From the NCBI RefSeq assembly GCF_000018865.1, contig NC_010175.1, forward strand, positions 4,588,001 through 4,652,000: 64,000 nucleotides of DNA. The letters are read 5' to 3'. The notes under the pieces are model-generated. The model did no database searches. It was not told the DNA's origin and saw nothing but the letters and a program-made list of their open reading frames with translations. The stretch is from Chloroflexus aurantiacus J-10-fl (GTDB lineage: Bacteria > Chloroflexota > Chloroflexia > Chloroflexales > Chloroflexaceae). Shown one piece after another: positions 8,705 to 58,373 of the stretch (positions are counted from its first letter, which is position 1; each line of letters opens with the position of its first letter). The translations under genes and the position numbers were made by a program.

Positions 8705-8897
8705 CCCTACCTCCCATTTCCTATCTTCTACCTTCTACCTTCTATCTCCTATCTCCTATCTCCTATCTCCTATCTCCTAATCTTCTATCTCCTATCTCCT
8801 ATCTTCTATCTCCTATCTTCTATCTCCTATCTTCTATCTCCTATCTTCTATCTCCTATCTTCTATCTCCTATCTTCTATCTCCTATCTCCTACCTCC
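8705..8897. repeat. 7/14-bp microsatellite (CT-rich on plus strand)
   Basis: The convergent gap between the response regulator and the decarboxylase beta gene is filled by about 190 bases of heptad repeats such as CTATCTC and CTATCTT, largely arranged as 14-bp units. One strand is almost pure pyrimidine apart from the A in TAT. Because 21 bp encodes seven residues, the array stays open in several frames (SYLLSPI-type peptides), but this is an artefact of the repeat and not a gene. Confidence 0.9.
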
Positions 8898-8903
8898 TCC
8901 CTC

Positions 8904-10025
8904 CTACCTCCCCGCCCCCATCAAGGCCAACAGCACACCACCAGCTACCACACTCGCAATCTGGCCGGCGGCGTTGGCTCCCATTGCGTGCATCAGCAGG
9001 AAGTTTTCAAAATCTTCTTCGTTTGCCAGCTTCTGCACCACCCGCGCCGCCATCGGAAAGGCGCTGATTCCGGCGGCACCGATCATGGGGTTGAACCTTC
9101 CACGGCTCAGGAGATTCAGGAATTTGCCGAACAGGAGACCGGCGGCTGTGTCGAGGGCAAAGGCCAGCATACCCAGGGCCAGGATCGCCAGCGTTGCCGG
9201 TTGCAGAAAACGGGTTCCCTCCATGGTTGAGCCAATCGCCAGGCCGAGGAAGAGGGTGACAATATTCGCCAGCTCCTGGGCCGAGGTGTTGGTTAAGCGC
9301 TGTACAACACCCGATTCGCGCATCAGGTTGCCCAGCATCAGCATGCCGATGAGCGGAATGGCGAAGGGTACCAGAATACCCACAATTACGGTGGTCACGA
9401 TGGGAAACAGAATACGTGTGCGGCGGCTGACCGGACGGGTGACGTATGCCATCCGAATCTGTCGTTCTGCCGGTGTGGTGAGCGTGCGGATAATCGGCGG
9501 CATAATCACCGGCACCAGCGACATATAGCTATACGCAGCAACCGTAATTGGGCCGAGGAGGTGGGGGGCCAGCAGGCTGGAGACGTAAATTGAGGTTGGC
9601 CCGTCGATGGCGCCGATAATCCCAATCGAGGCGGACTCTTCACGACTAAATCCCAGTGCCAGCGCGAGCAAGAGCGTGCCGAAGATGCCAAACTGCCCGG
9701 CAGCCCCTGTTAACACCATGCGTGGGTTGGAAAGGAGTGGGCTAAAGTCGGTTAGCGCACCTATGCCGATAAAGATCAAGAGGGGGAAGAGTTCATTACC
9801 AACACCGGCATTGTAGAGAATAGTCAGCAAGCCATCCTCACCTGCTAACGGCGAGAGTGGGAGATTGGCCAGGAGCGCACCGGCACCAATCGGCAGGAGT
9901 AGAAGCGGTTCATACTGATGCACTATCGCCAGATAGAAGAGCAGGGCGGCAATCCCTATCATCACCAGAGATTGCCAGGAAAGCGCACCAATGCCGGCGA
10001 AGATGCTGGCGATCAATTCACTCAT
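8904..10025 (-). CDS. Na+-translocating decarboxylase beta subunit
   Basis: About 373 residues, strongly hydrophobic, with the features of OadB/MmdB/GcdB: an N-terminal LIGIGALTDFSPLL-type segment, SIGIIGAIDGPTSIYVSSLLAP (the conserved region with the functional Asp), and the C-terminal NPMIGAAGISAFPMAARVVQ ... MHAMGANAAGQIASVVAGG. This subunit releases CO2 from carboxybiotin and couples it to Na+ export across the cytoplasmic membrane. The ATG at 10025 gives the usual N-terminus; an ATG at 10037 is the alternative. It is last in a four-gene operon with the carboxyltransferase, gamma/delta and biotin carrier genes. Confidence 0.92.
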   Translation of the reverse strand: MSELIASIFAGIGALSWQSLVMIGIAALLFYLAIVHQYEPLLLLPIGAGALLANLPLSPLAGEDGLLTILYNAGVGNELFPLLIFIGIGALTDFSPLLSNPRMVLTGAAGQFGIFGTLLLALALGFSREESASIGIIGAIDGPTSIYVSSLLAPHLLGPITVAAYSYMSLVPVIMPPIIRTLTTPAERQIRMAYVTRPVSRRTRILFPIVTTVIVGILVPFAIPLIGMLMLGNLMRESGVVQRLTNTSAQELANIVTLFLGLAIGSTMEGTRFLQPATLAILALGMLAFALDTAAGLLFGKFLNLLSRGRFNPMIGAAGISAFPMAARVVQKLANEEDFENFLLMHAMGANAAGQIASVVAGGVLLALMGAGR

Positions 10026-14511: not shown

Positions 14512-14555
14512 AGCTATATTGTAACGCAACTTGGGGGGAGGAGAGAGGAAAGAGG

Positions 14556-14670
14556 AAATAGGAAATAGGAGATAGGAGATAGGAGATAGGAGATAGGAGA
14601 TAGGAGATAGGAGATAGGAGATAGGAGATAGGAGATAGGAGATAGGAGATAGGAGATAGGAGATAGGAAG
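14556..14670. repeat. 7-bp microsatellite (GGAGATA units)
   Basis: About 15 head-to-tail copies of GGAGATA occupy the space just upstream of the deacetylase-like gene, about 45 bp from its start codon. One strand is almost all purine. Length change here would alter the upstream leader of that gene. Confidence 0.92.
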
Positions 14671-25745: not shown

Positions 25746-25847
25746 GATTGTCTCGGCGATGACACACCGTATGAACCAGATTTGATATAACACCCGCATC
25801 GAAACATCCTCGCCTATATCTATCTCTTCTAGCCCACTTCCCATCTC

Positions 25848-25973
25848 CTATTTCCTCACTCCTATTTCCTCACTCCTATTTCCTCACTCCTATTTCCTCA
25901 CTCCTATTTCCTCACTCCTATTTCCTCACTCCTATTTCCTCACTCCTATTTCCTCACTCCTATTTTCCCCTCC
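25848..25973. repeat. 14-bp microsatellite (CTATTTCCTCACTC units)
   Basis: Eight near-perfect copies of the 14-mer CTATTTCCTCACTC plus a degenerate ninth lie in the 450-bp gap between the last glycosyltransferase gene and the antiporter gene. The rest of the gap (25650-25847 and 25974-26102) shows only the duplicated GT4 3' end and no gene. Confidence 0.93.
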
Positions 25974-31205: not shown

Positions 31206-33116
31206 TCATTGGCCCGACCGTTCATCCTGTCGCTCGAAGAGCGGCATCTGCTCAAGCGGCGCCGGTACATCGGTGAGAGCGACTGGCCCTTGATGAATCG
31301 CACCACTCCAGTAGTCACGCCAGACGCCTGCCGGCAGGTAGACATCGCGCCGGCGCTGACCAGGGCGGACAACCGGTGCCACCAGATAGCGAGCACCGAG
31401 CAGGAACTGATCATCGCAATGCAATGCCTGCGTATCCGTTGGCGCGTACCAGAAGAGGGGGCGCACAAGTGGTGTGCCGTCGCGCAGATTCTCTTCGATC
31501 AGCGTTGCCAGATACGGCGTCAGATCAACGTGGAGCTGCGCATACTGGCGGCAAATAGCGTCAACCTCGGCGCCGTACTGCCACGGATGAACGCTGAATT
31601 GCATCGTTGGCAACAACGCACAGAGTTGCGTCCAGCGCACCATCAGCTCGCCATCCGGCACCTCATCCTGATACGCATTCCCGCCGATCATATCCGGCAG
31701 CACAAACGGATAACCACACAGACTGAGCGTCAGCGCCTGTGTTAGCACACTGTGCAGACCATTATCAATCCCCCAGCGACTCCACTTATCCCACTCGCGG
31801 TAGAGAATGCCACGCCGCTGACCGCGCCAACCGACGCGCACCTCGGTATAGGCAAAGTGATCGGCCACAAATTCGGTGTAGCGGTCGGCATAGCGACGGC
31901 GCGGCTCGCGCGCGTAACAGATGGCATCGGGCGGGATAAAATTGGCTTCACCGGCATCAAACTTAAACCCATCGACCCCGGTCTCTGCCTGAAGAGCACG
32001 TAGTTCACTGAGCCACCACGCCACCGCTTCAGGATTGGTCATATCGAGCACACCGCCGTAGCCCTGCCACCACCGCACCAGATAAGGTGCATTATCGGCG
32101 GGATGACGGATCAAATAGCCGCGCCGTGCCGCGACCGCAAAGGCTGGGTCAGCCGGATCGAAAAACGTTGGTGTCCAGAGCGTCACCTTAAAACCGGCTG
32201 CGTGCAGCTCATCCACCATCGCCCGCGGATCGGGGAACTTCCGCGGATCGAACACATACGCCCCATAGCCCCGTTGCCAGCGATCATCAATCTCCAGCAC
32301 CGAGTAGGGATAACCACGGGCAACGATCTGAGCTGCAAAATCGGACACATCCCGTTGCGTGACCGGCATCTTATAATGTGCCCAGGTCGTCCAGATCGGG
32401 CGGCTAAACAACTCCAGCGGTGGCGCAGCGGACGGTCGGCCCAACAGTGGCAGTGCCGTGTAAAACGCAGCCGGCGCATTGGCTGCCAGGATCACCTGGG
32501 CAACCAGGGCCGGGCCAGGCGCGGCATAGCGTTCATCGAAGCCGAGCGTAGGCGGCGGTGGTGCCTCGCGCGCAGTGATACGTAACAACCCATCACCGTC
32601 GCGGTTCATCGTCACTGCCAGCTCTCCATCACCCTCTTCCAGCCAAATCGCAGCCCCGGCAGCATTTACCCAAAAGGGAGTCGCGATATTCAGCGTACCG
32701 TCACGACCATGGTCAATTGGCTCGAACGGATCGGAGATCACCACACCACGGTCGAGCGGCCAATGCTGAAACACGCGCTCACCCATACCGTACCAGGGGC
32801 GTCCTGGTTCAAGCTGCCATTCAACCCGCAGTGCCGGCAGATGGGGCGGGCCAGACCAGCTCAAGCGAAAGCCGATGGGAGTCGTCTCAATTGTCAGGCG
32901 CAGTATCACCTCTGGGCGCGTGGTCGCGTAGTGAAGACGAGCCTGATGGTCGGTAACATCAGCACTTACAACGCCGGTAGTCGGTATATCCGTACCGTAG
33001 GCATACGCCGTCGCCCCTCGACAGCACAAGACCGTGCGGCCTTCGTGAGTAAAAACGATCTGACCGTGACCATCGAACGTGGCGGTACCGGCTGGGCTGT
33101 GAATGACATGTTGCAT
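31206..33116 (-). CDS. Glycoside hydrolase family 31 (alpha-glycosidase)
   Basis: A 636-residue GH31 enzyme. An N-terminal beta-sandwich precedes the barrel; the nucleophile Asp387 sits in GVDGFKFDAGEANF and YPYSVLEIDDRWQ marks the barrel start. The sequence DGFKFDAGE is closer to the alpha-galactosidase-type GH31 branch (for example MYORG-like) than to classic alpha-glucosidases, so the sugar specificity is open. No signal peptide. It is first in a two-gene operon with GH35, which suggests joint breakdown of galactose-containing oligosaccharides. GGAG lies upstream of the ATG. Confidence 0.88.
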   Translation of the reverse strand: MQHVIHSPAGTATFDGHGQIVFTHEGRTVLCCRGATAYAYGTDIPTTGVVSADVTDHQARLHYATTRPEVILRLTIETTPIGFRLSWSGPPHLPALRVEWQLEPGRPWYGMGERVFQHWPLDRGVVISDPFEPIDHGRDGTLNIATPFWVNAAGAAIWLEEGDGELAVTMNRDGDGLLRITAREAPPPPTLGFDERYAAPGPALVAQVILAANAPAAFYTALPLLGRPSAAPPLELFSRPIWTTWAHYKMPVTQRDVSDFAAQIVARGYPYSVLEIDDRWQRGYGAYVFDPRKFPDPRAMVDELHAAGFKVTLWTPTFFDPADPAFAVAARRGYLIRHPADNAPYLVRWWQGYGGVLDMTNPEAVAWWLSELRALQAETGVDGFKFDAGEANFIPPDAICYAREPRRRYADRYTEFVADHFAYTEVRVGWRGQRRGILYREWDKWSRWGIDNGLHSVLTQALTLSLCGYPFVLPDMIGGNAYQDEVPDGELMVRWTQLCALLPTMQFSVHPWQYGAEVDAICRQYAQLHVDLTPYLATLIEENLRDGTPLVRPLFWYAPTDTQALHCDDQFLLGARYLVAPVVRPGQRRRDVYLPAGVWRDYWSGAIHQGPVALTDVPAPLEQMPLFERQDERSGQ

Positions 33117-33207
33117 GACCGTATCTCCATATCACTTCAGTACACGCACTGATGATACCAGATAGCGGCAAGTATGGGGCAAACTCCGAAGAGCGCTGGG
33201 GTGGTTG

Positions 33208-33232
33208 CACCACAGAGGCACAGAGAGCACAA
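33208..33232. repeat. CACAGAG-type dispersed repeat
   Basis: TTGCACCACAGAGGCACAGA followed by 'gagcac' lies just upstream of the 274-bp array. Related sequences occur at 34243-34280, 45140-45175, 47180-47380 and 52262-52296. Confidence 0.7.
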
Positions 33233-33250
33233 GGTGAGGGGGTACTTCTT

Positions 33251-34215
33251 TCCCGCGCATCCTGCACGTGTCGCAGCGTTTGGCGTGCGCCAGCCGTGCT
33301 TACGATCCGGTGCGTGGCAGGCCGTTACCCATCCTGGTAACGGGGATGCCGGATGTGTTCGTGACGATCATCGAGTCGGTCAGGTATGAATGAGCTGCCT
33401 GCGCGTAGACGTTTGATTGTACCAGATTCGTGCCTGCGCACTATCCAACGACCACTTACCAGCTCCTGGCCCGGCGGCAGTATGCTGCTCCAGCCGCGCC
33501 AGCACGTGCGGGATGGATTGCCTTTCCCGCGCATCCTGCACGTGTCGCGGCGTTTGGCGTGCGCCAGCCGTGCTTACGATCCAATGCGTGGCAGGCCGTT
33601 ACCCATCCTGGTAACGGGGATGCCGGATGTGTTCGTGACGATCATCGAGTCGGTCAGGTATGAATGAGCTGCCTGCGCGTAGACGTTTGATTGTACCAGA
33701 TTCGTGCCTGCGCACTATCCAACGACCACTTACCGGCTCCTGGCCCGGCGGCAGTATGCTGCTCCAGCCGCGCCAGCACGTGCGGGATGGATTCCCTTTC
33801 CCGCGCATCCTGCACGTGTCGCGGCGTTTGGCGTGCGCCAGCCGTGCTTACGATCCGGTGCGTGGCAGGCCGTTACCCATCCTGGTAACGGGGATGCCGG
33901 ATGTGTTCGTGACGATCATCGAGTCGGTCAGGTATGAATGAGCTGCCTGCGCGTAGACGTTTGATTGTACCAGATTCGTGCCTGCGCACTATCCAACGAC
34001 CACTTACCGGCTCCTGGCCCGGCGGCAGTATGCTGCTCCAGCCGCGCCAGCACGTGCGGGATGGATTGCCTTTCCCGCGCATCCTGCACGTGTCGCGGCG
34101 TTTGGCGTGCAGCAGCCATGCTGCCGCAGCAGCCGTGCTTGGTGTCTGGCGAGTATCACGTCGTTCACCCTGCCGGTCACGGCAATACTGTTTGTTCTCG
34201 TCACGATCATGAGAT
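33251..34215. repeat. 274-bp tandem repeat array (three full copies plus a partial fourth)
   Basis: The sequence beginning TCCCGCGCATCCTGCACGTG occurs at 33251, 33525, 33799 and 34073, an exact 274-base period. Copies one to three differ at only a few positions. The fourth diverges after about 60 bases and contains an extra hairpin (GCAGCAGCCATGCTGCCGCA region, 34110-34130). Each copy opens antiparallel frames of 60-100 codons, but 274 is not a multiple of three and no frame has a ribosome binding site. I treat the array as non-coding. Single diverged copies lie at 40.8, 43.8 (inverted), 47.5 and 58.0 kb. Confidence 0.93.
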
Positions 34216-34285
34216 GATTAACGAGATAACTTCTACCGCCACATCCTCTGTTGTGTCCTCCGTGTCTCTGTGGTGAACTCATCCC

Positions 34286-34364: not shown

Positions 34365-35384
34365 GTGGCTACGATCAAAGATGTTGCGCGCCGGGCACAG
34401 GTATCAACCGCAACCGTCTCCTATGTCCTCAACGGGACCGGTGTGATCAGTGAACCAACCCGGGCGCGCGTCTTGGCTGCGGTCGCCGAGCTGGGGTATC
34501 AGCCCAACCACAGCGCGCGTGCCCTGCGCACCCGCTCGCACACCATCGGCATTGTCGCTCCCGGCATTGCCGGTCGTCTGGCCGACCCGGCGACCGCCGA
34601 ACTCCTGGCCGGTTTGAGCGAGGCAGCTACCACCGCCGGTTATTGCCTGTTGATCGCATCCCCCACTCCTGCCGAATCCGAAGACGAACTGGCGTTGCGG
34701 CTGGCCCGTAGTGGTCGGGTTGATGGTCTGGTCATCTTCGATCTCCGTCGCAACGACGAGCGACCGGCGCGTCTGGCGGCTGCCGGCGTTCCCACCATTG
34801 CCATCGGCGCGCCGACCCCCGGTCTTTCCTGCCCGGTTGCCGGTTTTGATCTCCGTGCCGGCGCTGAACAGGCCGTCAATCACCTGGCGCGGCTCGGTCA
34901 TCGTCGCATTGCCCTCATCACTGCCGCCTCTGATCTCAGTGTGAGCGAACATTTCTACACTGGCTATCGGGCAGCACTCCATGCCCATGGCCTCCGCCGT
35001 GAAGCGGCGCTGGTGATCGAAGCCGGAAGCAGTGAAGACGATGGCGTCAATGCGATGCAGGAGCTGCTGGCAATGCGGACACCACCGACAGCAGTGCTGG
35101 CGGCGTCTGATACGCTCGCCTTTGGAGCCATGCACGCCATCCGCGATGCCGGTTTGACGGTGGGGAAGGATGTTTCGGTTGTTGGTTGTGATGATTTACC
35201 CCTGGCCGCCCACACCTATCCGCCGCTTACCACGCTCCACGCTCCACATCGCGAGCTTGGTACGGTGCTTGCCCGGCATCTGATCGGGCTGGTTGAACGG
35301 CGCAACGTGCCGGATGTAACCCTCCTGCCGTTACGCCTGATCGTTCGTCACTCCACCGCTGCGCCGGTGCGTGCAGCCGGTTGA
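34365..35384 (+). CDS. LacI family transcriptional regulator
   Basis: A 339-residue regulator. Residues 1-50 form the helix-turn-helix and hinge (TIKDVARRAQVSTATVSYVLNG, ARVLAAVAELGYQPNHSARALR); residues 60-335 form the periplasmic-binding-protein-like sugar domain (HRRIALITAASD, VGCDDLPLAAHTYPPLTTL). The GTG start at 34365 is fixed by the conserved HTH. It probably senses a sugar and controls the neighbouring sugar genes and, through the operators at 34319-34346, itself. The ATPase gene follows 55 bp downstream. Confidence 0.93.
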   Translation: MATIKDVARRAQVSTATVSYVLNGTGVISEPTRARVLAAVAELGYQPNHSARALRTRSHTIGIVAPGIAGRLADPATAELLAGLSEAATTAGYCLLIASPTPAESEDELALRLARSGRVDGLVIFDLRRNDERPARLAAAGVPTIAIGAPTPGLSCPVAGFDLRAGAEQAVNHLARLGHRRIALITAASDLSVSEHFYTGYRAALHAHGLRREAALVIEAGSSEDDGVNAMQELLAMRTPPTAVLAASDTLAFGAMHAIRDAGLTVGKDVSVVGCDDLPLAAHTYPPLTTLHAPHRELGTVLARHLIGLVERRNVPDVTLLPLRLIVRHSTAAPVRAAG

Positions 35385-40637: not shown

Positions 40638-40824
40638 AAACAACTCCTGGATAACAATGAGCATCTGCTGTATGGTTAGGGTGAATATCGCAATACCTTC
40701 GTTTCCTTCATGGTACCAGCAAACAGCGTGCGTGTGGCCCACCAGCCGGTCGTTCAATAGCAGAGCAGGTAACAGCGCTGTAGAACATATTTCCTAAAAG
40801 CTGTGGGAAGAACTGACAACCATT

Positions 40825-40985
40825 GCCGTCGCCAGCGCACGCCGGATTGGGTGCCTTACCCGCGCATTATGCACGTGTCGCGAAGTTTGGAGTGCGGCAG
40901 CCATGCTGCCGCGCCAGCCGTGCTCACGACCCAGCGCGTGGCCACCGCTGACTGTGCTGGTCACGGGGATTAGGTTCTAGCGTTT
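40825..40985. repeat. Dispersed hairpin-core repeat, single copy (plus orientation)
   Basis: Matches the 274-bp array unit over GTGTCGCGAAGTTTGGAGTG and onward, but retains the perfect hairpin GCGGCAGCCATGCTGCCGC (40902-40920) that the array copies lack. The surrounding gap 40640-41143 holds no gene I can support. Confidence 0.8.
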
Positions 40986-43649: not shown

Positions 43650-43759
43650 CGTTGTTGTTATGTCAACAGTGAGATACACGAAGCGAGTAATACAAGTATA
43701 TCACATCACGGGGCGCAGTGCAGGGTGGTGGTGGGGCGAAATAAGAAACGAGCACATCC

Positions 43760-44085
43760 TGCTCTCCCGTGATCAGGATGGGTAACGGCCTACCACGCAC
43801 CGGATCGTGAGCATGGCTGGCGCGGCAGCATGGCTGCCGCACTCCAAACCGCGCGACACGCGCATGACGAGCGGGTACGGCACTCCATCCAGCACGTGCT
43901 GGCACGGCTGGGGCGGCACATTGCCGCCGGGCCAGGAGCCGGTAAGTGGTCGTCGGATAGTGTGCAGGCACGAACCTGGGGCAACCAAACGTCTACGCGC
44001 AGGTAGCTCATGCATGCCTGGCCGACTCGATGATCGTCACGAACACATCCGGCATCCCCGTGACCAGGAGGGCGTGCTGCATCCT
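43760..44085. repeat. Dispersed hairpin-core repeat, full-length inverted copy
   Basis: The reverse complement of this segment matches the whole 274-bp unit of the 33-kb array: 'cgatcatcgagtcgg', 'gagctacctgcgcgtagacg', 'gacgacc acttaccggctcc' and the hairpin GCGGCAGCCATGCTGCCGC (rc of 43823-43841). It lies between the broken CHAT gene and the small membrane protein gene. Confidence 0.85.
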
Positions 44086-44710: not shown

Positions 44711-44765
44711 ACGGCCTTTAATGTAGCACAAAATGGCGGAGTCTGCAAGTGGTGAGGGGAGGGAA

Positions 44766-44905
44766 GAAAATAGGACAGAGAAAATAGGACAGAGAAAATA
44801 GGACAGAGAAAATAGGACAGAGAAAATAGGACAGAGAAAATAGGACAGAGAAAATAGGACAGAGAAAATAGGATAGAGAAAATAGGATATAGGATATTAG
44901 GGTAT
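44766..44905. repeat. 14-bp microsatellite (AAAATAGGACAGAG units)
   Basis: Seven perfect copies at a strict 14-base period (ATAGGACAG at 44770, 44784, 44798, 44812, 44826, 44840, 44854), then two degenerate copies. It follows the tRNA gene on its 5' side. The wider gap 44711-45207 contains only this array, the repeats at 44941-45060 and a CACAGAG-type element. Confidence 0.93.
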
Positions 44906-46149: not shown

Positions 46150-47195
46150 CCCTGATCTCCTGACAATTTCAGAGCGCTCTGCAGGTCACTAAACGAACGA
46201 ATACCATTCAAATGCACACCAAGGCCAACAATTGATTGCACAACTTCAGGGCGGATACCGACCAGGACGACCTGTGCCCCAAGCAAGCGTGCAGCCTGTA
46301 CTACCCGGATTAACCCCTGCGCTATCTGGGTATCGATCACCGGTACACCGGTAACGTCGAGTAACAATCGACGGGCGCCGGTCGCGGCAAGCCGTCCAAG
46401 CGCCTGCTCCTGTACCTGGCTCAAGCGTGCCGTATCAAGCGCTCCAACCAGCGGCATCACCAGGGTGTCGCGATTGATCGGTAGCACCGGTACGCTTAGT
46501 TCGCGAATAGCATCGCGTTGCTGCTGAATAATTGCCAGTTGTTCCGACACCTGTCGGTGTGCGGCTTCGATTGCATCGCGGGACTGAATTGCCTGCTGGT
46601 AGAGCCGTTCCAGATCGCGAGTTTGCCGCCGGATTGTGTCGGTCATTTGGTTGAACGCTCGTTGTAGTGCACCGACTTCGTCTTCACTGGTAATGGTGAT
46701 TGGTTGATCAGAGCGCCCTTCGGCCAGCGCTGCTGCGGCAGCAGAGAGATGCCGCAAGGGGCGGACAATCGAGCGCTCGATCAGCCAGAGCAGGAACAGC
46801 GTAAGTACCCCCATGCCTGCCAGCGCTACCCCAATACCGGTAAACGTTGCCATCACTTCGATGGCTATCTGGCGCTGTGTAGCCGCCTTCATGTCCGCAA
46901 TATACTCCATTGCCTGGGCTGAGAATTGTTCACGTTGCTCTTCAATCGTCTCAATTGTTTCGTATAAGACGTCGGCTTGCGCTTCAGTCAGTGATTGGAC
47001 GTCAGGGGGTATCTGTTCTTGCAATGCTTGCGTCAGACTCAGAAGGGTTTCGGTCTGGCGGACAATCATATCTTGATCGGATACTTGAAGCAGACTGTAG
47101 CGTTCATGCGCATTACGTAAAGATCGGATCAGCGACTCGACATTGCTGAGCAGTTCCTTACGGAAACAATGCTCACATTCACTATCTCTGTTCAC
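46146..47195 (-). CDS. HAMP-STAS (RsbR-like) protein, probably truncated at its N-terminus
   Basis: A 349-residue frame. Residues ~15-110 look like an extracytoplasmic helical sensor, one membrane helix covers ~113-140, a HAMP domain follows (RSIVRPLRHLSAAAAALAEG), then a coiled coil and a STAS domain with DVTGVPVIDTQIAQGLI and GIRPEVVQSIVGLG. The match to RsbRA (GVPV.DT; GIRPE..QT) is good. The expected first membrane helix is missing. The only start is a GTG at 47195 with no ribosome binding site, directly after a TAA, and it lies inside a CACAGAG repeat. So the true 5' end seems lost. Confidence 0.8.
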   Translation of the reverse strand: MNRDSECEHCFRKELLSNVESLIRSLRNAHERYSLLQVSDQDMIVRQTETLLSLTQALQEQIPPDVQSLTEAQADVLYETIETIEEQREQFSAQAMEYIADMKAATQRQIAIEVMATFTGIGVALAGMGVLTLFLLWLIERSIVRPLRHLSAAAAALAEGRSDQPITITSEDEVGALQRAFNQMTDTIRRQTRDLERLYQQAIQSRDAIEAAHRQVSEQLAIIQQQRDAIRELSVPVLPINRDTLVMPLVGALDTARLSQVQEQALGRLAATGARRLLLDVTGVPVIDTQIAQGLIRVVQAARLLGAQVVLVGIRPEVVQSIVGLGVHLNGIRSFSDLQSALKLSGDQG

Positions 47196-47390
47196 TTAGT
47201 GTCTCTGTGGTGCAATTCCTCACTACACTGCACCGGGAATAACCGCCAGCGTAAGGATACAGAACATCTCTGTGTTCTCTGTGGCTCTGTGGTGCAATTC
47301 CCTCACCACACTGCGCCGGGAATGATCACCAGTGCAAGGACTCAGAATATCTCTGTGTTTTCAGTGTCTCTGAGGTGCAATTCCCACTCC
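47176..47390. repeat. Three tandem ~84-bp repeats containing a CACAGAG-type core
   Basis: The phrase TCTCTGTGGTGCAATTCC-(T)CAC followed by 'cactgc-ccgggaat' recurs three times (about 47201, 47286 and 47368), separated by 'agga-(t/c)acagaa'. The first copy overlaps the start of the HAMP-STAS frame. Confidence 0.85.
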
Positions 47391-47398
47391 TACGACAC

Positions 47399-47889
47399 GC
47401 TATGCATTACCCATAACTGGTGTCAACCACGTGCGTATCGGCTGGTATGATCGCTATTGGCGCTGTTGTGAGCGACCGCCTCGGTGGCAGTGCGCTGCAC
47501 CAGCCGTGCTATCACATGCTGAATGGATTGCCGTACCCGCTCTTCATGCGCGTGGCGCAAGGTTTGGAGTGCGGCAGCCATGCTGCCGCGCCAGCCGTGC
47601 TCACGATCCGGCGCGTGGTACACCGTTACCCATCCTGATCACGGGAGAGCTGGAGGAGAGCTGGATGTGCTCGCTTCGATCATCGAGTTGGTCAGGCATG
47701 CATGAGCTACCTGCCGTAGACGGTTTGTTGCAATAGATTTATGCCTGCACACCAGCGGCCACGACCAGCACCTGACGGCAGTGGCGAGGATGCTTGCACG
47801 CAGGCTGGAAGCCTGCGCCACGCCACCCGTGCCACGGGGAGCGCTTGCAGTCCGGCCTAACGCAGGGTGACATGTGGGTAATGCATAGC
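47399..47889. mobile_element. Possible non-autonomous element bounded by 15-bp inverted repeats
   Basis: GCTATGCATTACCCA (47399-47413) recurs exactly inverted at 47875-47889. The 490 bp between contains a copy of the dispersed hairpin-core repeat (47455-47735, hairpin GCGGCAGCCATGCTGCCGC at 47571-47589) and GC-rich hairpins (GGCTGGAAGCC, 47801-47818), but no protein gene. No target-site duplication was recognised, so the mobility call is tentative. Confidence 0.4.
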
Positions 47890-50960: not shown

Positions 50961-51029
50961 GACGGTTTGCGCCGTCCATTTGTTATGTCTACAACGGGTG
51001 GAGTGAATTGTCTGCGGTTTGGTACCCGC

Positions 51030-51600
51030 TGCTGAGGTATCCCCTGGGAGCGCACGCCTCCGGTACGCTCGTCATCCATGACCGCATGTCGTGTCCGTGT
51101 CCTGATGAACATTCCCGCCCCCAGCGGGGGCGGGTTAGGGTGGGGGCGTATCGCAACCCACACGGCAGACCCGGCTACCGTAGGGGCGGGTTCTCAACCC
51201 GCCCCACCACCACACCCGCTGCCGGGGTATCCCCTGGGAGCACGCGCCTCCGGCGCGCTCGTCATCCATGACCGCATGTCGTGTCCGTGTCCTGATGAAC
51301 ATTCCCGCCCCCAGCGGGGGCGGGTTAAGGTGGGGGCGTATCGCAACCCACACGGCAGACCCGGCTACCGTAGGGGCGGGTTCTCAACCCGCCCCTATCA
51401 CCACACCTGCTGCCGGGGTATCCCCTGGGAGCACGCGCCTCCGGCGCGCTCGTCATCCATGACCGCATGTCGTGCCCGTGTCCTGATGAACATTCCCGCC
51501 CCCAGCGGGGGCGGGTTAGGGTGGGGGTGTATCGCAACCCACCCGGCGTACCCGGCTACCGTAGGGGCGGGTTCTCAACCCGCCCCACTACCACCCACGC
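51030..51600. repeat. ~190-bp GC-rich tandem repeat array (three copies)
   Basis: The landmark GACCGCATGTCGTG occurs at about 51080, 51269 and 51460 (periods 189 and 191). Each unit contains CCGCCCCCAGCGGGGGCGGG (a strong hairpin) and a second inverted pair GGGGCGGGTTCTCAACCCGC. Long frames cross it on both strands, but they are repeat-driven with no start signals. It fills the convergent gap 50897-51639. Confidence 0.9.
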
Positions 51601-57787: not shown

Positions 57788-57934
57788 CCGGTAGTGTTGT
57801 AGCCTTCATACTCCCCACGCAGGCGACCGGTGCGTGGGGAGTGTTTGATGTATTGGCAGGATGGTCTCCACTCAGTGTGTAAGACTAGAACTTATTTCAT
57901 AAAAAGCTGTACTATCGCGCTCTCATAACCACCT

Positions 57935-58145
57935 CCAGTGCCATCACGCGCCGGATAGGTTGCCTTGCTCGCTCATCATCCGCGTGGTGCGTCGTTTGGA
58001 GTGCGGCAGCCATGCTGCCGCGCTGGCCGTACTCACGATCCGGCACGTGTCATGCCATTGACCCGACTGGAGACGAGGATGCTGTGTGTGCGCGTCGCGA
58101 TCATTGAGTCGGTCGGCATGAATGAGGTACCTTCTCGTAGATGTT
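57935..58145. repeat. Dispersed hairpin-core repeat, plus orientation
   Basis: Contains TTTGGAGTGCGGCAGCCATG followed by 'ctgccgcgctgg' (hairpin 58003-58021) and 'atcattgagtcggtc', matching the 33-kb array unit. A second, shorter and more diverged piece lies at 58235-58365. Together they account for most of the 57788-58434 gap. Confidence 0.8.
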
Positions 58146-58373
58146 TTTTGAAACAGGTTCTACTGCGCACGCAGCGGGAACGCCGACTCTGCACATCTAT
58201 GCTCAGGTAAAGCAATCCTTTGATACGTTAAAACATATTTCATTTGGAATGCGGCAGTGTGGCTGCCGCAGCAGTCATACTCACAAGCAGGTGCATATCA
58301 CGTCGTTGATCCTGCTGGTCACAGGGATGCGGTGTGCGCTCGTCACGATCACAAAGAGATAACTTCTAAAACA

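Follow-up and report, generated by a model that had tools for sequence, protein, structure and literature searches.

In the parts of the REP/RAYT literature considered here (PMC2817692, PMC3733652, PMC6006769 and PMC8266576), REPs are described as GT(A/G)G-tagged palindromes together with two tagless classes (classes 2.6 and 3; PMC6006769), and no Chloroflexus palindrome family was found in them. Slippage on hairpins with direct repeats has been shown in vitro with polymerases from thermophiles (PMC4134008). A literature search for MITEs in Chloroflexus returned no relevant report.

We analysed a window of 64,000 bp (bases 4588001-4652000) of the Chloroflexus aurantiacus J-10-fl genome (5,258,541 bp, one contig), which contains a tandem array at 33.2-34.3 kb. 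The array very probably arose by amplification in place of the interior of family F1, a non-autonomous MITE of IS4/Tn5 type, and is dead; this account takes in the palindrome, RAYT and slippage steps described below and requires no present function of the array. Using TRF, we identified a period of 274 over 33248-34122 (3.2 copies, 98% matches, 0 indels, score 1694), and exact 17-mers at 33249, 33523, 33797 and 34071 bear out the unit starts 33251, 33525, 33799 and 34073, so the exact 274-base period with four starts proposed by an earlier sequence-only reading stands. According to blastn with the F1 consensus, homology to F1 extends beyond the TRF end as far as 34210, and the array segments correspond, in order, to F1 positions 133-343, 77-343, 77-343 and 77-273. 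The 274-bp unit consists of 250 bp of F1 (267 minus 17) and 24 bp of non-F1 sequence, which is found at each unit junction. No F1 TIR was found at 33.2-34.3 kb; as the array has no F1 ends, it is a MITE fragment and not a MITE, and with neither end present it is homology that suggests its origin in a formerly inserted MITE.

The neighbours of the array are a GH31 gene (31206-33116, minus strand) and a LacI-family gene (34365-35384, plus strand). The intergenic DNA of six congeners can be aligned to the array region only from ~34285 onward, which indicates that the array and the adjoining CTCTGTG repeat are absent in these six congeners; an exact orthologous empty site for the array could not be defined in their intergenic DNA. 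CTCTGTG/CACAGAG-rich repeats are found beside several copies (47184-47385, 33205-33235 and 34240-34283) and are also part of the unit of a 193-bp array. Other tandem repeats in the window have units of 7 or 14 bp (CCTATCT, AGGAGAT and similar; 8706-8911, 14539-14668, 25845-25965 and 44765-44887).

Since Sanger finishing of the genome involved repeat-resolution software (PMC3150298), the array might be read as an assembly artefact of a repeat-rich genome, but there are several substitutions between units (98% identity), the last unit runs into different sequence and arrays of other periods occur at many loci, which makes such an artefact highly improbable. It is hardly credible that the units encode a short repeated protein. 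Each contains an ORF of 92-93 aa (33386-33667, 33660-33941 and 33934-34212), but the family has 17-bp deletions and many other length changes, 274 is not a multiple of three, and the consensus has several frames open simultaneously, as would be predicted for non-coding DNA rich in G+C; with no frame favoured, a coding origin was rejected.

The features of the window are listed in Table 1. The hairpin sites of the three amplified units all read GTGCGCCAGCC, and the predicted DNA fold is -12.4 kcal/mol for the hairpin of the last unit versus -4.0 for the deleted form. Relatives at 40.8, 43.8 (inverted), 47.5 and 58.0 kb have a perfect GCGGCAGC-NNN-GCTGCCGC hairpin. The sequence-only reading had noted these four perfect hairpins, their lack in the amplified copies and their retention in the last, partial unit alone, all of which we could reproduce, except that the retained hairpin has one arm mismatch and so is not perfect. 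It had also taken the relatives for single copies of one family; the 43.8-kb relative is not a plain single copy, and the 40.8- and 58.0-kb relatives are members of a second family (F2) with different ends. The intact F1 MITE of the window is flanked by TACGACACG and CACGACACG, a 9-bp TSD with one mismatch.

Table 1. Repeat features of the window (window coordinates)
Feature	Position	Strand	Basis
Tandem array of MITE-F1 interior	33248..34210	+	TRF; blastn, F1 consensus vs array
REP/hairpin deletion site, unit 1, TTTGGCGTGCGCCAGCCGTGCT, 17 bp missing	33279..33300	+	
REP/hairpin deletion site, unit 2	33553..33574	+	
REP/hairpin deletion site, unit 3	33827..33848	+	
REP hairpin retained in last, partial unit, one arm mismatch, GCAGCAGC-CAT-GCTGCCGC	34101..34127	+	
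Terminus-like end GAGATAACTTCTA, common to the 58.2-kb element; 3' edge of array	34223..34235	+	
Truncated F2-type copy, REP 40886-40912	40781..40970	+	
Partial F1 copy, same unit-to-unit junction as array, intact REP 43822-43848	43748..44072	-	
Intact F1 MITE, 489 bp, both TIRs, REP 47563-47589	47400..47888	+	
F2 MITE, IS5-type ends TAGAACTTATTTCA...TGAAACAGGTTCTA, REP 57995-58021	57886..58162	+	
Related short element, REP variant 58243-58269, end GAGATAACTTCTA; left edge approximate	58230..58368	+	

A genome-wide search with the 274-bp unit, which the sequence-only reading had proposed as a check, revealed a large family (at least 58 matches, with 40 of 271 candidates scored). The F1 consensus, built from a 31-member hairpin class (mean pairwise identity 82%), is 472 bp long and has 19-bp inverted ends (CTATGCATTACCCATAACT...). 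Between CTATGCATTACCCA and TGGGTAATGCATAG we identified 75 TIR-bounded elements, whose lengths cluster at 465-489, 609-630 and 290-325 bp. Perfect 9-bp target duplications are found at 9 of the 75, versus 0.55 expected from mismatched flanks, and many of the 75 have no recognisable TSD. The TIR 14-mer occurs 150 times forward and 153 times reverse in the host genome (reversed control: 0), and 0-1 times in total in each of seven congeners. Element-free paralogous sites were also found: the joined flanks of the MITE at 180313-180778 match one over 191/191 bp (95%), and for the parent IS described below the corresponding match is at 93%. The third size class (~290-325 bp; e.g. G000:C1 387338-387647 and 1140683-1140985) has the same IS4-type ends without the hairpin. 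Insertions of IS4-type elements lie near CCGCTG/CAGCGG in G+C-rich palindromes (31 of 75 flanks; background, 6.6%), and three tandem copies of a 191-bp unit at window 51024-51594 carry a palindrome, CCCGCCCCCAGCGGGGGCGGG, of the kind into which the MITEs insert.

The ends of F1 equal those of a 1,484-bp IS of the same genome (L054:884-2367), which is bounded by a perfect 9-bp TSD (GTTCCCCCC twice) and encodes a transposase of the IS4 family (E=1e-88; Tn5 transposase, 1.8e-41; PF14706). This Tn5-type transposase, with DNA-binding and DDE domains, is present in the parent IS and not in the array. Its frame runs for 353 aa and then meets an in-frame TAG, which is shared by the only other copy of this IS in the host genome, a decayed one; with both copies interrupted, the host genome has no intact full-length Tn5-like transposase. 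With the best parent transposase cut short at the TAG and no other copy than the decayed one, it is doubtful that F1 is still mobile. The two TAGs are at the same codon (L054:2029-2031 and L052; G000:C1 766.5 and 21.9 kb), just after the catalytic core, in proteins that are 67-73% identical. A relative in another Chloroflexota genome (L061) has a 497-aa open frame with Tyr at the TAG codon, and a homologous end, CTTCCCATTACCCAAAAGT.

The second family, F2, is 279 bp long. The host genome contains an 855-bp IS5-family IS with open frames, and the ends of F2 (TAGAACTTATTTCA/TGAAACAGGTTCTA) match the ends of this IS. F1 107-331 and F2 53-277 share 82% identity, which gives F1 the look of an old F2-type element enclosed by IS4-type ends. 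These results affirm the hairpin-bearing mobile family suspected in the sequence-only reading, on the strength of TIRs, an IS4-type parent and 9-bp target duplications (it had named flanking target duplications as a check). Empty sites, also named there, could be recovered as paralogous sites within the genome and not as orthologous ones, which could not be aligned in the six congeners. Its remark that the family resembles no known IS is wrong, since F1 has TIRs, 9-bp TSDs and an IS4-family parent, with a Tn5-like gene between the same ends, and F2 has IS5-type ends; its wider interpretation is only partly supported.

In F1 and F2 alike, conservation is highest in the hairpin. In F1, divergence is 0.2% in the hairpin arms, 2.6-5.9% at the ends and 11.2% in the rest, and in F2 it is 0.3% in the arms and 9.9% in the rest. 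The arms are perfect in 113 of 125 hairpin copies, among which no compensated arm change was seen within the species. The loop is CAT in 108 of the 125 copies and has the inverted form ATG in 9, loop inversion being the expected product of template switching between the arms (PMC8604942). The palindrome consensus is TTTGG[A/C]GTG-CGGCAGC-CAT-GCTGCCG-C. The host genome has 206 exact copies of the 27-nt motif (110/96); the six other Chloroflexus genomes listed have none, and a single copy is found in one further genome out of 300 from Chloroflexota.

Because this extremely conserved hairpin is common to different carriers, a REP was suspected. A search of the host genome for Y1 transposases identified a RAYT gene at 3.878 Mb (184-aa ORF, 3.8784-3.8790 Mb; NF047646, 5.2e-32; PDB 4ER8, 7e-7; NHYHF and Tyr motifs present), with the palindrome on both sides of it (>20 copies in 4 kb). 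The sequence-only reading, correct about the mobile family, had missed that the hairpin is a separate palindrome that brackets a RAYT gene. The REPs around RAYT (G000:C1:3877600-3881600, L163) are spaced at 59 and ~174 bp. The asymmetric ones are all on the plus strand, and the nearest one on one side is a symmetric palindrome and thus orientation-free. REP contexts differ (RAYT array, F1/F2 core and CTCTGTG repeat), the segment common to them being TTTGG[A/C]GTGCGGCAGCCATGCTGCCGC. A second Y1_Tnp match (2054490) was rejected, as it has an internal TGA and no hairpins nearby.

RAYT orthologues with 60-61% identity are found in two sister species (G002 and G005), where they are bracketed by hairpins with the stem GCGGCAG...CTGCCGC, so that RAYT is bracketed in all three species. 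Forward/reverse stem counts are 268/231 (host, total 499), 266/258 and 202/186 in the RAYT-bearing genomes, versus 10/12, 0/0, 3/3 and 33/35 in four congeners without RAYT (G004, with 42/43, was left out of this comparison); related hairpins total 388-524 in the two RAYT-bearing sister species and 0-68 in the four without. The GT(A/G)G tag is absent 5' of the stem, where TTTGG[A/C]GT is found instead, and the palindrome is therefore not filed as a canonical GTAG-REP. In single-stranded form, TTTGGAGTGCGGCAGCCATGCTGCCGC, it is a candidate RAYT substrate. A more distant RAYT (32%; L168, genome G331) is flanked by repeated GTAGT-GCCGACTTTAGTCGGC hairpins, which are canonical GTAG-tagged REPs.

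Almost no arm divergence, with perfect arms in so many copies, would also be consistent with a transcribed RNA element (a terminator, an mRNA-stabilising or a regulatory element) or a structural RNA family, as would stem pair 8, both sides of which differ between species (C-G in the host, mostly T-A in G002/G005). We consider such an RNA element very unlikely, however: no match to the hairpin was found in Rfam at gathering scores, no T-run was seen 3' of the hairpin at the copies inspected, compensatory changes are absent within the species, and the hairpin occurs in either orientation, within elements that have IS ends. A RAYT substrate, moreover, predicts equal conservation and accounts for the link to the gene.

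Among 132 core copies, which are a sample of the genome, the segment between fixed anchors is 28-31 nt in 125 and exactly 13 nt in 7, the latter at three loci. The 17-bp loss joins two 13-bp imperfect direct repeats, CGGCAGCCATGCT and CGCCAGCCGTGCT; the surviving 13-mer is the right repeat in the window array, the left one at 4209910 and a recombinant in the array at 130 kb. Since the same 17-bp loss at other loci has different crossover points, slippage or recombination, versus precise excision or an empty site, is the best explanation for the loss of the hairpin. On another reading, the bases that the array lacks are precisely the palindrome, CGGCAGCCATGCTGCCG, and the genome has REPs in several contexts that are not related, as if a hairpin-less core were ancestral, RAYT had inserted the palindrome later and the array's core had never had it. 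This order of events is unlikely, as the hairpin is present in 125/132 copies and likewise in the last unit and the 43.8-kb copy, which share the junction or body of the array, and as two other 17-bp losses keep the left arm with other crossover points, which speaks for recombination between 13-bp repeats and not for an empty site. The same counts and copies uphold the earlier proposal that a hairpin-deleted variant amplified in place.

Hairpin loss is found in 2 of 10 clusters (at least 2 copies) versus 1 of 89 single copies (p=0.03), weak numbers from a biased sample, so an association of hairpin loss with tandem arrays is only suggestive. Loss as a precondition for amplification was rejected, since hairpin-bearing cores form arrays too (6 x 239, 6 x 374 and 8 x 193 bp). 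The 8 x 193 bp hairpin array is located at G000:C1:120012-121390, and G000:C1:127392-130870 (L092) contains 13 copies of the hairpin unit, spaced at 245-346 bp, three of them without the hairpin.

Taken together, amplification of an F1 interior would involve the following steps. The sequence shows that F1, 472 bp long with inverted ends of 19 bp and TSDs of 9 bp, matches an IS4-family IS of the same genome; its core is homologous to that of the IS5-ended F2 and contains a REP-like palindrome, the one that brackets RAYT and whose relatives are most abundant in RAYT-bearing Chloroflexus. The IS4 and IS5 transposases would have mobilised F1 and F2 in trans, and the palindrome probably is, or was, a substrate of RAYT, a role that, combined with template switching at the site, would account for how extremely conserved it is. 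At 33.2 kb, an end-less F1 fragment was duplicated head to tail and its palindrome was lost via a 17-bp deletion, presumably by replication slippage across the hairpin, and the unit would then have multiplied via unequal crossing-over or slippage.

We tentatively suggest, as a possibility still open to considerable doubt, that a RAYT-served, non-GTAG palindrome colonised (or was captured by) the cores of two MITE families with unrelated transposases (IS4- and IS5-type ends), so that one short sequence may spread through three transposition systems; RAYT action would hold the palindrome near-invariant in decaying carriers, and its loss, as in the array, would mark a copy out of that cycle. The array itself is debris, but its analysis exposed a layered repeat system that accounts for much of the genome's repeats, with two MITE families, one common core and, inside it, a palindrome tied to a RAYT gene. 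Two questions thereby become testable, namely whether a RAYT holds its palindrome constant within carriers that decay, and whether slippage at direct repeats leads to loss of the hairpin in vivo.

Compared with known systems, F1 resembles the Tn5/IS50-like group of the IS4 family in its 19-bp ends and the 9-bp length of its TSD, and the parent transposase is Tn5-like (NF033590, PF14706, PDB Tn5). It differs in that F1 has no transposase gene and an interior unrelated to the parent, that the parent frame is broken by a TAG and that the array has lost both ends. F2 shares its ends with the IS5-family IS (NF033580), but it has no transposase, and its core is common to the IS4-type MITE F1. As in the hairpin deletion by polymerase slippage of PMC4134008, a hairpin with flanking direct repeats is lost as one repeat length, here inferred from sequence and there seen in an assay. 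As in REP/RAYT systems (REPtrons), a G+C-rich palindrome of 20-40 nt is present in hundreds of copies and brackets a RAYT gene, its abundance follows the presence of RAYT across congeners, and its stem changes on both sides between species. In contrast to the described systems, it has no GTAG/GTGG tag, the asymmetric REPs by RAYT all point in one direction, and many copies are inside MITEs with IS ends and not free-standing. Relative to the REP/RAYT papers considered here, the tag is different, copies are located in MITEs with IS ends and palindrome number follows RAYT in a comparison of three species.
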